In this document: positions 9,212 to 14,749 of the stretch, piece by piece | Position numbering within the stretch: position 1 is the first letter of the stretch | Layout: each line of letters opens with the position of its first letter | Assembly: GCA_947167135.1 (NCBI GenBank) | Contig: CAMVGV010000025.1 | Coordinates: 1-36,889, forward strand | From: an uncultured Lachnospiraceae bacterium | GTDB taxonomy: Bacteria; Bacillota; Clostridia; Lachnospirales; Lachnospiraceae | Direction: 5' to 3' | DNA: 36,889 bases | The notes under the pieces: generated by a model | Told to the model about the DNA's origin: nothing | The model's input: only the letters and a program-made list of their open reading frames with translations | Database searches by the model: none | Program-made: the position numbers and the translations under genes

Positions 9212-10633
9212 ATGAGCAATCTCACTAACAGCTCAGCCGGACAGAGGATATTATCTCTTCTGGACGAGAACAGCTTCGTTGAAGTCGGCGCTCAGGTTCT
9301 GGCCCGCAGTACCGATTTTAATGAGAAGCCTTCGGACGTTCCGGGGGACGGTGTGATAACCGGCTACGGAACGGTTGACGGAAGGCTTGTTTATGTCTAC
9401 AGCCAGGACGCGAAGAGCCTTGGGGGCTCTGTAGGCGAAATGCATGCGCGGAAGATAGTGAATATCTACCGCCTTGCAATGAAGACGGGTTATCCCGTTA
9501 TTGGTCTTCTTGATTCCACGGGTTTAAGGATAAGCGAGTCCACGGATGCGCTGAATTCCTTAGGGAGGATCATGAAGATCATGGCAAAGGCCTCGGGAGT
9601 GATCCCGCAGATCACCGCCGTTTTCGGAAACGCAGGCGGCGGAATGTCCGTTATAGCCGAGCTCTCCGATTTCGTATTTATGGAGAAGAACGGTAAGCTC
9701 TTCCTTAATTCACCCAATGCGGTGAAGGGTAATTACGAGGATAAGTGCGACACCTCAGGGGCAGCCTATAAGTCGGAGGCCGGTGTTGTAGATGTATGCG
9801 CAGAGGGTAATGAGCTTTTCGCAAAGCTTAGGGAGCTTCTTTCCTTCCTTCCGGACAATTGTGATGATGAGGCTGTGATCGTTGAGGGCAGCGACGACCT
9901 TAACAGAGTGTCGGCGGATCTTTCCGGATGTGCGGATGACGCATATGAGATCCTCTTACGTATTGCCGACGACGGCAGATTCTTTGAGCTTAAGAGTGAG
10001 AGCGGAAGGAATGTTAATATCGGCTTCATCCGTCTTAACGGTGCCACGGTAGGCGTTATCGGAAACAGGAAAAAGTCCCTTTCCGACAAGGAGCTTAAGA
10101 TCGACAATAAGCTCGGGCTCTGCGGTATGAGAAAGGCTTTGAAGATGGTGGATTTCTGCGACGCCTTTAATATCCCGATCCTTACGCTTACCAATGTGAA
10201 GGGCTTCTGCACCTGCGAGCATACCGAGAAGATGGGAGCCCGTGCGGCTGCAAAGCTTGTACGTGCCTTTGCGGGAGCAGAGGTTCCGAAGGTCAATGTG
10301 ATAGTCGGAGAAGCTTACGGTTCCGCTGCAGTGATCATGAACAGCAAGGCCGTGGGTGCCGATTACGTTTATGCCTGGAACAGTGCCAAGGTTGGAGCAA
10401 TGGATGCCCGCCACGCGGCTGAGATCTTATGCGAGGGCGAAAGCGAAGCTGTTATCAGCGAAAAGGCAAGGGAATATGATGAAAAGCAGGGCAGCGTGGT
10501 AAGTGCAGCCGCAAGGGGTTATGTTGATACCGTGATCGACCCTCAGGAAACCAGAAAATATGTTATAGGCGCATTTGAAATGTTATACGGAAAGAGCGAC
10601 ATTTCACCGGACAGGAAACACAGCACCATTTGA
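9212..10633 (+). CDS. Acyl-CoA-type carboxyltransferase subunit (MmdA/12S-like)
   Basis: Member of the acyl-CoA carboxylase carboxyltransferase family that includes methylmalonyl-CoA decarboxylase alpha (MmdA), the 12S subunit of transcarboxylase and PccB. These move a carboxyl group between an acyl-CoA and biotin. The 473 residues form two crotonase-like halves: the first has the oxyanion loop FGNAGGGMSVIAELSDFV (about 139-156), the second has VGEAYGSAAVIM (about 366-377) and the WNSAKVGAM stretch. It is somewhat shorter than the usual 500-520. It is the first gene of an operon with OadG-, biotin-, OadB- and OadA-like genes, which argues for decarboxylation coupled to Na+ export or transcarboxylation rather than lipid synthesis. 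The acyl-CoA substrate is not readable. Confidence 0.85.
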   Translation: MSNLTNSSAGQRILSLLDENSFVEVGAQVLARSTDFNEKPSDVPGDGVITGYGTVDGRLVYVYSQDAKSLGGSVGEMHARKIVNIYRLAMKTGYPVIGLLDSTGLRISESTDALNSLGRIMKIMAKASGVIPQITAVFGNAGGGMSVIAELSDFVFMEKNGKLFLNSPNAVKGNYEDKCDTSGAAYKSEAGVVDVCAEGNELFAKLRELLSFLPDNCDDEAVIVEGSDDLNRVSADLSGCADDAYEILLRIADDGRFFELKSESGRNVNIGFIRLNGATVGVIGNRKKSLSDKELKIDNKLGLCGMRKALKMVDFCDAFNIPILTLTNVKGFCTCEHTEKMGARAAAKLVRAFAGAEVPKVNVIVGEAYGSAAVIMNSKAVGADYVYAWNSAKVGAMDARHAAEILCEGESEAVISEKAREYDEKQGSVVSAAARGYVDTVIDPQETRKYVIGAFEMLYGKSDISPDRKHSTI

Positions 10634-10648
10634 TAAAGGAGAGATTAA

Positions 10649-11488
10649 ATGAAAAAGATCATCAAAAGACCTGTTCTCCTCATACTGATGCTGTTCCTGC
10701 TCCTTTCGATGACGGCCTGCGGCGGAAGCCGGAGTAAGCTTGAATATAATGCCGATACCGTTGAAAAGAACACGAAAAATGCGATTGCCATTATGCAGCA
10801 TGCAGAAGAGCTCGGAATATCCCGGCTTGCTGAAGCAGAGGATGAGGAGCTTGTGGAATTTGAAGCATGGATAAAGAGCAACGGTCTTCCGATCAAGGGC
10901 TCTGCATTTAAGGACGGGTATCTGTCCTACCGTGAGGCTGTAAACGGAGACCTCGGAGAGGTCGTTTCCGTAGCCGATGATGTGATCATAACCGCGGGAG
11001 ATGACGCGATAACCTGTGATGTAACCCTTACCGGTACAAAGACCTTTCAGGACGGCTCTCCCCGTACCGCCACCGCGGAGATCATAATGACAAAGGGCGG
11101 AACCATCACAAGCGCAGTCATCAACGTGGACAGAACCTTCAATGAGAAGATCATAAATGCAGCGCTGAATACAGTTCTCGGTATGGGCACCACCTTCTGC
11201 CTGCTTATCTTTATAAGTATTGTGATCTGGATCATGGGTACGGTTGTCCAGAATATGGAGAACAGAAAGACCAAGGCGAGATCCGAGGCGGAAAATGCGG
11301 CAATTAATGCAGCAGCCCAGATAGCGGAAAGAGAAGAACAGAGCAGAAAACAGAACGCGGATGCTACAGCCGGTGACAGTGCACTTATAGCGGTCATCTC
11401 TGCTGCCATAGCAGCCTATGAAAGCGAAAGGACAGGAGCTGCTGTCTCGCCGGATACCTTTATAGTGCGTTCACTCAGGAGACGTTAA
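10649..11488 (+). CDS. OadG-like decarboxylase gamma subunit fused to a lipoprotein domain
   Basis: A 279-residue protein with three parts. A lipoprotein signal (about residues 5-24) ends in SMTAC with Cys24 as the likely lipidation site. An extracytoplasmic domain (about 30-165) of unknown type follows. Then come a membrane segment (about 174-197) and a cytoplasmic tail ending in ALIAVISAAIAAYES and a basic FIVRSLRRR. The tail is the signature of OadG/MmdD gamma or delta subunits, which anchor the carboxyltransferase to OadB. Ordinary OadG proteins are about 80-120 residues and lack the outer domain. AAAGGAGAG precedes the ATG. Confidence 0.8.
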   Translation: MKKIIKRPVLLILMLFLLLSMTACGGSRSKLEYNADTVEKNTKNAIAIMQHAEELGISRLAEAEDEELVEFEAWIKSNGLPIKGSAFKDGYLSYREAVNGDLGEVVSVADDVIITAGDDAITCDVTLTGTKTFQDGSPRTATAEIIMTKGGTITSAVINVDRTFNEKIINAALNTVLGMGTTFCLLIFISIVIWIMGTVVQNMENRKTKARSEAENAAINAAAQIAEREEQSRKQNADATAGDSALIAVISAAIAAYESERTGAAVSPDTFIVRSLRRR

Positions 11489-11510
11489 AAGAAAAAAGGA
11501 GATATACAAG

Positions 11511-11876
11511 ATGAAAAATTATACGATTACCGTTAACGGTACAAGCTATGACGTTACAGTTGATGAAAAGGGAGGAAGCACAGCAGGCGCACCTGCAGCA
11601 GCTCCCGCGCCCGCTCCTGCAGCAGCGCCTGCAGCAGCACCCGCACCCGCAGCCGGAGCCGGATCCATACAGGTTACAGCCGGAGCTGCAGGAAAGGTAT
11701 TCAAGCTTGACAAGAACGTGGGAGATCAGGTCAAGAAGGGTGAAACCGTTATCACCATTGAGGCAATGAAGATGGAGATCGGCTGCGTCGCACCCGAGGC
11801 AGGCACGGTTGCTTCCATAAATGTTTCCGTGGGAGATCCCTGTGAAAACGGTACTGTTCTCGCAACGCTTAAGTAA
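11511..11876 (+). CDS. Biotin carboxyl carrier subunit
   Basis: A 121-residue biotinyl protein that shuttles carboxyl groups between the carboxyltransferase(s) and OadB. Residues 1-22 form a short N-terminal strand region, 25-50 are an Ala/Pro-rich flexible linker, and 52-121 form the biotinyl domain. The biotin site is AMKM (85-88) with Lys87, and the matching glycine-rich hairpin (DKNVGDQVKKGETV) lies just before it. The ribosome binding site AAAGGAGAT is well placed. Equivalent to the 1.3S subunit of transcarboxylase or MmdC. Confidence 0.93.
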   Translation: MKNYTITVNGTSYDVTVDEKGGSTAGAPAAAPAPAPAAAPAAAPAPAAGAGSIQVTAGAAGKVFKLDKNVGDQVKKGETVITIEAMKMEIGCVAPEAGTVASINVSVGDPCENGTVLATLK

Positions 11877-11890
11877 AGGAGAGCCGGTAA

Positions 11891-13015
11891 ATGGAATATA
11901 TTGCTAATACATTGGCGAATCTGGCATCCCAGTCGGCATTTTCCAATATGACGGCAGGAAATGTGGCAATGATTGTTGTTGCACTCATTTTCATGTATCT
12001 TGCCATTGTAAAGGGCTTTGAGCCGCTGCTCCTTGTGCCGATCTCATTCGGGATGCTGCTCGTTAATATTTATCCTGACATAATGCAGGAGGGAGGGCTT
12101 TTACACTACTTCTTCAAGCTGGATGAGTGGGCTATCCTTCCCTGCCTTATATTCATGGGTGTCGGAGCCATGACGGACTTCGGACCCCTTATTGCGAACC
12201 CGAAGAGCTTCGTTCTCGGCGCTGCGGCACAGTTCGGTATTTTTACCGCATATTTCGGTGCCATTGCCCTTGGCTTTAATGATAAGGAGGCTGCTGCGAT
12301 CTCCATCATCGGAGGAGCGGACGGTCCGACCTCCATCTTCCTTGCCACAAGGCTTGGACAGACTGCGATCCTCGGACCCATTGCGGTAGCCGCATATTCA
12401 TATATGTCGCTGGTTCCCATTATCCAGCCTCCGATTATGAAGCTTCTTACAACCGAGGAAGAGAGAAAGATAAAGATGGAGCAGCTCCGTCCCGTATCAA
12501 AGCTTGAAAAGGTGCTCTTCCCCATAATCGTTACGATCATAGTAGCCTTGATACTTCCCACGACAGCGCCTCTTATCGGTATGCTGATGCTCGGAAACCT
12601 TTTCCGTGAGTGCGGCGTGGTACGCCAGCTTCAGGAGACGGCTTCCAATGCGATGATGTACATAGTCGTGATCATGCTGGGAACCTCTGTGGGAGCTACT
12701 ACAAGTGCGGAGGCCTTCCTCAATGTGACCACAATAAAGATCGTTATCCTCGGTCTCATTGCATTCGCATTCGGAACTGCGGCCGGAGCGATAGTAGGAA
12801 AGATCATGTGCTATGCCACCGGAAAGAAGATAAACCCTTTGATCGGGTCTGCCGGTGTTTCGGCGGTACCTATGGCGGCGCGTGTTTCGCAGAAGGTGGG
12901 AGCTGAATCCGATCCCACAAACTTCCTGCTGATGCATGCCATGGGACCTAATGTAGCCGGTGTTGTGGGAACCGCTGTCGTAGCCGGAACCTTCATGGCT
13001 GTTTTTGGAGTTTGA
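11891..13015 (+). CDS. oadB: Na+-pumping decarboxylase beta subunit
   Basis: Integral membrane subunit that decarboxylates carboxybiotin and exports Na+. The 374 residues form about nine to eleven hydrophobic segments. The conserved motif [12 protein letters not shown] (139-150) carries D144, the counterpart of the Na+/proton-binding aspartate of Klebsiella OadB, and the [10 protein letters not shown] and [12 protein letters not shown] stretches are also typical. It starts 14 bases after the carrier gene with AAAGGAGAG upstream. It is followed by 321 non-coding bases full of stem-loops before oadA. The symbol is used for the family; MmdB and GcdB are close paralogues. Confidence 0.92.
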
Positions 13016-13016
13016 C

Positions 13017-13294
13017 TTGATCCCGAAGGGATCGAGTCACGGCGACATCAGATTTGCCGAAGCAAATCTGATGTTGGTTGTAAAGTTTGAGAAAATTGAA
13101 ATTTCGCATCAGGCGAAATCCGGAACGACCTGCCACGTTTCCGAAAGGAAACGTGTCCTGCGAAGCAGGATTGCCCGAAGGCTACGGAGCCGAGGGCAAG
13201 CCAAAAAGGCAGCGAAAAGAAAAGCTGCCACGTTTCCGAAAGGAAACGTGTCCTGCGAAGCAGGATTGCCCGAAGGCTATGGAGCCGAGGGCAA
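13017..13294 (+). repeat. Array of at least nine stem-loops between oadB and oadA
   Basis: This 321-base gap has no gene I believe; it is packed with perfect hairpins. They are 13017-13035 (loop GAA), 13043-13076 (15-bp stem with one GU, loop CGAA), 13101-13119 (7 bp), 13134-13155 (9 bp, loop GAAA), 13156-13170 (6 bp, loop GAA), 13171-13199 (outer TTGCCC/GGGCAA, inner GGCT/AGCC), 13208-13229 (GGCAGC/GCTGCC), 13229-13250, 13251-13265 and 13266-13294, the last three repeating earlier ones. Most loops are GAA, CGAA or GAAA. None is followed by a T-run, so they are not simple terminators. Possible roles are mRNA stability or setting the ratio of oadA to the upstream genes. Confidence 0.9.
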
Positions 13295-13296
13295 GC
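13131..13296 (+). repeat. 71-base direct repeat inside the stem-loop array
   Basis: Bases 13131-13201 and 13226-13296 are the same 71-base sequence with one difference (C at 13185, T at 13280). Each copy contains three consecutive hairpins. The 24 bases between the copies supply most of the GGCAGC/GCTGCC hairpin. The near identity suggests recent duplication. Confidence 0.93.
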
Positions 13297-13336
13297 ACTG
13301 TAGGGAATGTGTAGAGATTATCAGGAGGAATAATAA

Positions 13337-14749
13337 ATGTCTGATACAAATAAAAAGAAAGTCGGTATCACCGAAACGATCCTGAGGGATGCCCACCAGT
13401 CACTCATTGCCACCAGAATGCCGGTTGAAGAGATGCTTCCGATACTGGATACAATGGATCAGATTGGTTACAATTCGGTTGAGTGCTGGGGAGGAGCAAC
13501 CTTCGATTCCTGTCTCCGTTTCCTCAAAGAGGATCCATGGGAGAGACTGAGAAAGATCAGAAAGGGACTTCCCCACCAGAGGCTGCAGATGCTCTTCCGC
13601 GGCCAGAATATCCTGGGATACAGCCACTATGCAGATGATGTGGTTGAATACTTTGTTCAGAAGTCCATAGCAAACGGAATAGATGTTATCCGTATCTTTG
13701 ACTGCTTAAATGACTTAAGAAATCTGGAGACCTGTGTAAAAGCCACAAAGAAGGAAAACGGACATGCGCAGATCGCACTCTCATACACGCTCGGAGATGC
13801 TTATACTCTTGAGTATTGGGAGAATGTGGCAAGGAAGATCGAGGAGATGGGTGCTGATTCCATCTGTATAAAGGATATGGCGGGTCTTCTCCTTCCCGGA
13901 GCAGCCTTCGACCTTGTAACCGCATTGAAGAAGGGATCAAGCCTTCCGATCCAGCTTCACACCCACTATACATCAGGTATGGCATCAATGACCTATCTGA
14001 AGGCTGTGGAAGCCGGAGTCGACGTTATAGACTGTGCCGCATCACCTTTTTCCATGGGCACAAGCCAGCCTGCAACCGAGGTTATGGTAAAGGCTCTCGA
14101 GAGCAGCGGATATGATACCGGTATGGATCTTGAAAAGGTCATAGAGGTAGGAAAGCATTTCGAGCCGTACAGAGAAGAGTGCTTAAAGAGCGGACTCTTA
14201 AATCCCAAGGTTATGGGAGTAAATATCAACACCTTAAGATACCAGGTTCCCGGCGGAATGCTTTCGAATATGATAAAGCAGCTTGGAGAGCAGGGTAAGG
14301 AGGACAAGCTTACAGAGGTTCTGGAGGAAGTGCCCAGAGTACGTAAGGATCTGGGAGAGCCGCCTCTTGTTACACCTTCTTCACAGATCGTCGGAACCCA
14401 GGCCGTTATGAACGTGCTTATGGGAGAGAGATACAAGGTTTCAACAGGGCAGACAAAGGATCTTTGCCGCGGTATGTATGGCCAGACTGTGAAACCGATG
14501 AATCCTGAGGTTGTTGCAAAGATCATTCCCGGGGAGACTCCGATAACAGACCGTCCCGCGGATCATCTGGAGCCGCAGCTTCCTAAGTTCAGGGAAGAAT
14601 GTGCACAGTGGATACAGCAGGACGAGGATGTGCTTTCATATGCACTGTTCCCCCAGGTTGCCACTGACTTCTTCAAATACAGGAAGGCACAGCAGGAGGG
14701 TGTTGATCTTTCAAAGGCCGATAAGGAGAACGGAGCCTATCCGGTTTAA
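13337..14749 (+). CDS. oadA: Pyruvate/oxaloacetate carboxyltransferase (OadA / 5S subunit)
   Basis: Transfers a carboxyl group between oxaloacetate/pyruvate and biotin. The 470 residues contain the HMGL-like TIM barrel (about 8-270) and the conserved carboxylase domain (about 290-460). Metal and active-site residues are visible: D18 in ILRDAHQS, K179 (the carbamylated lysine position) in ICIKDMAG, and H208 and H210 in QLHTHYTSG. The protein stops before any biotinyl domain, so biotin must come from the separate carrier at 11511, as in the 5S subunit of transcarboxylase. AGGAGG precedes the ATG. It is the last gene of the operon, followed by a terminator. Confidence 0.94.
   Translation: MSDTNKKKVGITETILRDAHQSLIATRMPVEEMLPILDTMDQIGYNSVECWGGATFDSCLRFLKEDPWERLRKIRKGLPHQRLQMLFRGQNILGYSHYADDVVEYFVQKSIANGIDVIRIFDCLNDLRNLETCVKATKKENGHAQIALSYTLGDAYTLEYWENVARKIEEMGADSICIKDMAGLLLPGAAFDLVTALKKGSSLPIQLHTHYTSGMASMTYLKAVEAGVDVIDCAASPFSMGTSQPATEVMVKALESSGYDTGMDLEKVIEVGKHFEPYREECLKSGLLNPKVMGVNINTLRYQVPGGMLSNMIKQLGEQGKEDKLTEVLEEVPRVRKDLGEPPLVTPSSQIVGTQAVMNVLMGERYKVSTGQTKDLCRGMYGQTVKPMNPEVVAKIIPGETPITDRPADHLEPQLPKFREECAQWIQQDEDVLSYALFPQVATDFFKYRKAQQEGVDLSKADKENGAYPV

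Follow-up and report, generated by a model that had tools for sequence, protein, structure and literature searches.

The chain of stem-loops between the oadB- and oadA-type genes of an uncultured Lachnospiraceae bacterium very probably goes back to an old insertion of an intergenic repeat of about 125 bp, a non-autonomous mobile element whose copy here has since multiplied in tandem and partly decayed. The window analysed here is a stretch of 36,889 nucleotides from genome G000. The repeats form a dispersed family with a common four-hairpin structure and a preferred target; a precise insertion was observed, as were the variation of the oad array between relatives and its growth in tandem. This ties the array to a repeat family that is highly active in gut Lachnospiraceae and listed in no library searched.

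Positions 9212-14749 of the window hold a sodium-pump decarboxylase-type operon, in which Pfam gives the order Carboxyl_trans, OAD_gamma, Biotin_lipoyl, OAD_beta, array and PYC_OADA, the last as a separate protein after the beta subunit. The gap between OAD_beta and PYC_OADA is 321 bp and the stem-loop chain runs over 13013-13294, whereas gaps elsewhere in the operon are 14-22 nt, the same values as in an earlier interpretation made from the letters alone (the sequence-only reading). The oadB stop codon TGA (13013-13015) forms the first three bases of hairpin A, and directly 3' of the array AGGAGGAAT was read by eye as the ribosome-binding site of the oadA-type gene. The features, with scores from the covariance model R2 introduced below, are:

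11891..13015, + strand: oadB-type gene (OAD_beta, Pfam PF03977, E 4.4e-153), the upstream neighbour of the array
13013..13039, + strand: hairpin A, 12-bp stem with one G-T pair, loop GAA
13043..13076, + strand: hairpin B, 15-bp stem with one G-T pair (13 strictly paired), loop CGAA
13099..13121, + strand: HP0 of unit 1, stem ATTTCGC/GCGAAAT, loop ATCAG
13122..13201, + strand: core of unit 1, with linker, HP1 (13134-13155), HP2 (13156-13170), HP3 (13171-13199; 6 bp and an inner 4 bp) and tail; R2 58.8 bits, E 2.5e-11
13208..13229, + strand: hairpin at the HP0 position of unit 2, stem GGCAGC/GCTGCC, 10-nt loop
13217..13296, + strand: core of unit 2, with HP1 (13229-13250), HP2 (13251-13265) and HP3 (13266-13294); R2 56.9 bits, E 6.8e-11
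13337..14749, + strand: oadA-type gene (PYC_OADA/HMGL-like, Pfam PF02436, E 8.9e-54), the downstream neighbour

The window array consists of probable remnant hairpins followed by one full and one partial unit. Hairpin A, which is also found 3' of oadB in G028, G015 and G004, was probably left from an older unit, and hairpin B, present with changes in the same three genomes, is probably a remnant as well. The loop ATCAG of the unit 1 HP0 recurs in several other family members. A 72-nt block is duplicated at 99% (13130-13201 and 13225-13296) with a period of 95, in agreement with the three-hairpin block, duplicated with one change, that had been reported earlier.

The sequence-only reading had counted at least nine perfect stem-loops. 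The array itself holds up, with ten stem-loops in 282 bases, but only seven of them pass a strict test (at least six perfect pairs, loop of 3-8), and the stem described as 15 bp long and perfect at 13043-13076 has that length but includes the G-T pair. Loops of the GAA, CGAA or GAAA type, noted before as a shared trait, occur in six of the seven strict hairpins. In 1000 dinucleotide shuffles the maximum was 3 strict hairpins (mean 0.39), and when the window was cut into 260 overlapping tiles of 282 nt, a single tile held 6 and no other more than 4. The predicted RNA fold of 13005-13336 has a z score of -15.6 relative to shuffles. No promoter-like site was found in 12900-13450, and no intrinsic terminator (GC-rich hairpin and U-run) on its + strand; two terminator-like sites in this interval both lie on the minus strand.

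Among the outcomes named in advance as fatal to the sequence-only reading were a known RNA family and a coding frame conserved in relatives. Rfam covariance models gave no match over the window. An open frame (13005-13385) does span the gap, but a coding function was rejected, as relatives have unrelated sequence or just 11 nt there.

The genome and its relatives were searched by BLAST and with covariance models, much as had been proposed, and this revealed the dispersed family. BLAST with 89 nt gave matches in seven of 48 genomes of the genus, and in six of these they lie outside the oad gap; in G000 it returned the oad copies alone. As there is no near copy of the oad version elsewhere in that genome, the oad array joins the family by its structure and HP2, not by near identity. 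A first covariance model, R1, built from nine BLAST-found sequences, matched 15 of the 48 genomes at E<=0.01, and R2, built from 31 matches, matched 23 at E<=1e-4. R2 copies number 25 in G004, 22 in G000 with the two oad units counted, 21 each in G028 and G020, 19 in G019, 17 in G006 and 14 in G032, most genomes used being fragmented MAGs. Across the wider Lachnospiraceae, six of 397 genomes had matches (11 candidates scored per genome), the window's own among them, and hence five other genera; the layout there is similar, and the match in G351 (34.5 bits, no HP0 seen) is the least convincing.

The unit of about 125 bp has the order HP0, linker, HP1, HP2, HP3 and a tail of 3-4 nt, and HP2 (TCC-GC GAA GC-GGATT) is its most conserved hairpin. 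In the 31-row alignment, whose fitting to the model biases pairing figures upward, 96.9% of 744 cells are paired versus 69.3% after shuffling; both sides are changed in 216 cells (64 in shuffles), affecting 21 of the 26 modelled pairs, and sliding the alignment by 1-3 columns leaves 28-47% paired. Among seven loci with dispersed copies the sole Rfam match above threshold was an FMN riboswitch beside a copy (L163, 1994-2137); two young elements in tandem lie about 0.8 kb from it. Below the threshold, models of unrelated families (best E 4e-4) hit stretches that the L158 copies also cover. One young copy queried against plasmids had no match, and five viral contigs with the HP2 string carried no unit better than E 0.024. 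The literature searched, which included few subscription journals and no bioRxiv preprints, did not describe a family of this kind for Lachnospiraceae, and this family of tiny four-hairpin mobile elements is apparently undescribed so far.

Young copies are mobile. At G028:C98, the counterpart of the G000:C7 copy, the site is empty (...CATGATATAATG/TCATAACTG...), and the G000 insertion adds 123-124 bp between the same flanks (one base is ambiguous) without target duplication. This is the one clean empty site read; a second query gave a larger indel that also held another repeat. Five copies in G000 and three in G028 are identical over 123 nt. When 12 loci of G000 were set against 12 of G028, homologous flanks beside the element were seen in L161/L301 only, as patches of 70-91%; a further match, between L161 and L294, lies away from the elements. 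Around the repeat CATTCTGAGCGAAGC, locus L167 (G000:C36:12300-14400) holds a second dispersed family (GTCATTCTGAGCGAAGCG...); the matches listed for it include many in G000, G027 and G025.

The ends of the element were read in 31 copies from G000, G028 and G018. It starts with ATAG in 26 of these rows and with GTAG in one, and the right flank is CAT(A/G) in 27 of the 30 rows that show one (TATA, CTTA and CCTG in the others); on the opposite strand, the young elements of G000 therefore have YATG directly 5' of them. TATA mostly follows the right end in the families of G004 and G019. Tandem copies on G000 C67 join at the target sequence, and solo HP0 and solo HP3 copies exist. The end hairpins, the tetranucleotide target without duplication and the solo end hairpins together point to an HUH-type enzyme, and we infer single-strand movement in trans from this insertion footprint, not from an enzyme.

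The same gap was compared in close relatives, as had been suggested, and it ranges from 11 nt to three units. Thirty oadB loci of the genus were taken and 28 measured from stop codon to oadA start, the contigs ending in G018 and G014. The gap is 321 nt in the window, 320 in G027, 272 in G015, 225 in G028 and 102 in G004, and just 11 nt in G025 despite a 99% identical OadB. G009 (681 nt) and G003 (280 nt) have other repeats; by eye, the G009 gap (L009) is mostly imperfect tandem repeats of about 48 nt, unrelated to the hairpin units. The remaining 20 gaps are 22-93 nt in 16 cases and 139-202 nt in four. A small open frame, similar in both species, was seen by eye between oadB and oadA of G016 and G033 (L018, L026).

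R2 detects three units in the oad gap of G027, two in that of G000 and a single one in G028, with a weaker match (37.5 bits) in G015; the other 96 of the 100 oad loci searched have none (29 from the genus and 71 from a named-genome collection, at least three genomes apparently being in both sets). The tandem period is 95 in G000, and 97 and 82 in G027. Compared with unit 1 in a fixed register, the middle unit of G027 has both sides changed in 5 of 25 pairs and one side in 2, and 22 of the 25 remain paired. Whole units, not single small hairpins, were repeated in tandem as the oad array grew. The earlier suggestion of a growing mobile palindrome family is therefore upheld for mobility, by its presence in 23 of 48 genomes, the empty site and the near lack of sites common to two close relatives, and for growth, by one to three units in near relatives; its idea that small hairpins are added singly is not.

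A proposed course of events may be given for these observations. An element of about 125 bp would insert precisely, leaving its target unduplicated, with an HUH-type enzyme moving it in trans. In the oad operon the insertion directly after the oadB stop codon would have come first, and would later have been repeated and trimmed, probably via recombination between direct repeats. Once transcribed, the hairpins of long-kept copies may shield or separate the two halves of the mRNA, and copies may be retained at gene ends because insertion there is harmless or useful.

A rival account holds that the hairpins are cis-acting RNA elements, recruited between cistrons as signals of mRNA processing or stability; they would fix how much downstream product is made relative to the upstream one, and selection on the RNA would keep them. 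This account, which is compatible with a mobile origin, is possible rather than probable. Support for it comes from the old copies. We grouped 98 matches (two of 100 left out) by 85% identity and placed 96 relative to genes called by a simple longest-frame script; the sites are partly non-independent, orthologous ones being counted separately. Of the 40 placed copies in groups of one or two, the old copies, 31 have the upstream gene on their own strand and 8 on the opposite strand, and in 1 it was not seen; within 30 nt of a gene end the count is 20 same and 4 opposite. In groups of at least five, the young copies (53 placed), the corresponding numbers are 29, 20 and 4, and 9 of the 15 abutting a gene end have it on the same strand. 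Middle-size groups contain three copies.

Among 30 hand-picked copies, mostly old ones on the coding strand, HP0 and the stop codon could both be placed in 24. In 12 the stop codon overlaps or touches the 5' arm of HP0, in four of these by its last base only; in 10 it lies 8-9 nt before HP0, six of them with a TGAGCGNAG box and four representing one alcohol dehydrogenase site seen in different genomes. For most old copies, then, the place is at the stop codon of the upstream gene, on the coding strand. Contexts confirmed by Pfam include atpB-atpE (G028), oadB-oadA in another genus (G212), rplJ-rplL and gatC-gatA (G364) and dnaK-dnaJ (G223), and by eye, paired changes separate the atpB-atpE copy of G028 from that of G007. 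Pfam-checked neighbours also include the 3' end of an iron alcohol dehydrogenase gene and others that form no such pair. However, contexts that demand no stoichiometry occur as well, and the 11-nt gap of G025 makes the array dispensable there. The stems, moreover, are nearly pure Watson-Crick and give no clear sign of selection on one RNA strand. An excess of G-U over A-C (25 to 0) was discarded as such a sign, as it came from a model-fitted alignment of related rows; a strand-neutral recount gave 5 G-U and 2 A-C among 41 representatives, and 13 and 6 when all 98 were counted. So few wobble or mismatched pairs suggest that the arms are matched at the DNA level and not solely by RNA selection. 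An effect of the transcribed hairpins on mRNA is possible, and close relatives, whose unit number runs from none to three, provide a dosage series made by nature in which to see whether the hairpins alter operon stoichiometry.

That the element is a REP/REPIN member moved by a RAYT tyrosine transposase we regard as doubtful. In its favour are the tetranucleotide 5' of a hairpin (mostly ATAG in young copies, GGAG or GTAG before HP0 in several old ones), the inverted TATAG...CTATA ends of the G004 and G019 families, the solo end hairpins and the RAYT-like genes read from protein sequences in G000, G027, G019 and G032, as well as the gene-end location and repeat-supplied stop codons. The Y1 family (PF01797) was found in 24 of 48 genomes, being present in 7 of 13 with at least seven copies (one as a fragment at a contig end), 2 of 10 with 1-6 copies and 15 of 25 with none. 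It is no commoner in element-rich than in element-free genomes, which counts against Y1 as the mobiliser; MAG incompleteness limits the tally, but G020, 93% complete with 21 copies, is among the six element-rich genomes where no Y1 gene was detected. None of the 32 Y1 loci searched, part of those in the genus, has a unit nearby, and six element copies share no match longer than 16 nt with them. The RAYT-like gene of G000 (L210, G000:C13) is flanked, by eye, by inverted GGGGACGGTTCTGTGATT repeats, another palindrome system. The conserved internal HP2 would also not be needed in a mere spacer.

Other candidate enzymes were rejected as well. TnpB (PF07282) is in 5 of 15 genomes tested and absent from G004, G019, G028 and G018, IS91-type Y2 (PF04986) is in 7 of 48 but not G000, and reverse transcriptase (PF00078, RVT_1) is in 17 of 48. 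The 64 loci around candidate genes (32 Y1, 12 of 24 TnpB, 4 Y2 and 16 of 20 RT) hold no unit, and no mobiliser gene was found among the four families. The mobiliser is a concrete target for further work.

It is unlikely, in our estimate, that the repeats form a new class of mobile element, with an enzyme outside the tested families and arms re-copied from each other during movement, so that stems change wholly yet stay perfectly paired, old copies persisting between genes of multi-subunit complexes as hairpins linked to stop codons. Near-perfect pairing together with heavy stem turnover raises a testable question, namely how the palindromes are copied. A retroposon-like element copied from RNA by target-primed reverse transcription is very unlikely: a nearly fixed 3' flank CAT(A/G) with a variable 5' flank, copies without the 5' part (L302, L339, L343, L344) and the somewhat higher frequency of RVT_1 in element-rich genomes (8 of 13, compared with 2 of 10 intermediate and 7 of 25 element-free ones) would fit it, but RVT_1 has no match in G000, which is 99.8% complete and carries 22 copies, and 5' truncation of the retroposon kind was discarded, as copies without the 3' part (L336, L337, L346, L347) are equally common in the sample.

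The preferred reading, a non-autonomous mobile repeat, finds several partial counterparts among known systems. Palindromic MITEs derived from IS200/IS605 have hairpin ends and a tetranucleotide target that is not duplicated, and the present element resembles them in all three: the empty site and the CAT(A/G) flanks place its insertion 3' of a fixed tetranucleotide without duplication. No IS200/IS605 copy with matching ends, as expected of a parent element, was found among the Y1 loci searched. With REP, BIME and REPIN sequences it shares non-autonomous mobility, repeat-supplied stops and a location of short palindromes at the ends of genes (PMC3733652, PMC3116915); for GTAG REPs, TAG stops supplied by the repeat are reported in PMC3733652. 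It differs from them in its four-hairpin unit, conserved internal HP2, stems that turn over and ends that are mostly ATAG/CATR instead of a GTAG beside each palindrome, and in that no associated RAYT gene flanked by the repeats was found at the Y1 loci searched. HP0 and HP3 lie at the unit ends, bounded by TATAG...CTATA in G004 and G019, as a pair of inverted palindromes might, but by eye the two hairpins differ in sequence. CGTC-tagged REPs, described as 20-40 bp palindromes predominantly of alphaproteobacteria, are likewise repeats near gene 3' ends with no dedicated transposase (PMC3733652), but no CGTC tag was seen in the hairpin elements here. BOX repeats of Streptococcus pneumoniae, as described in PMC3049150, are composite, modular and intergenic, with predicted stem-loops and a middle module whose number varies between strains; in the present family it is the entire unit that recurs in tandem, with covarying stems, which sets it apart from the BOX layout as described. 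The element works in the manner of REP/REPIN and BOX repeats, but it departs from REPs in both the GTAG tag and the RAYT association, and the search for a parent insertion sequence gave none.
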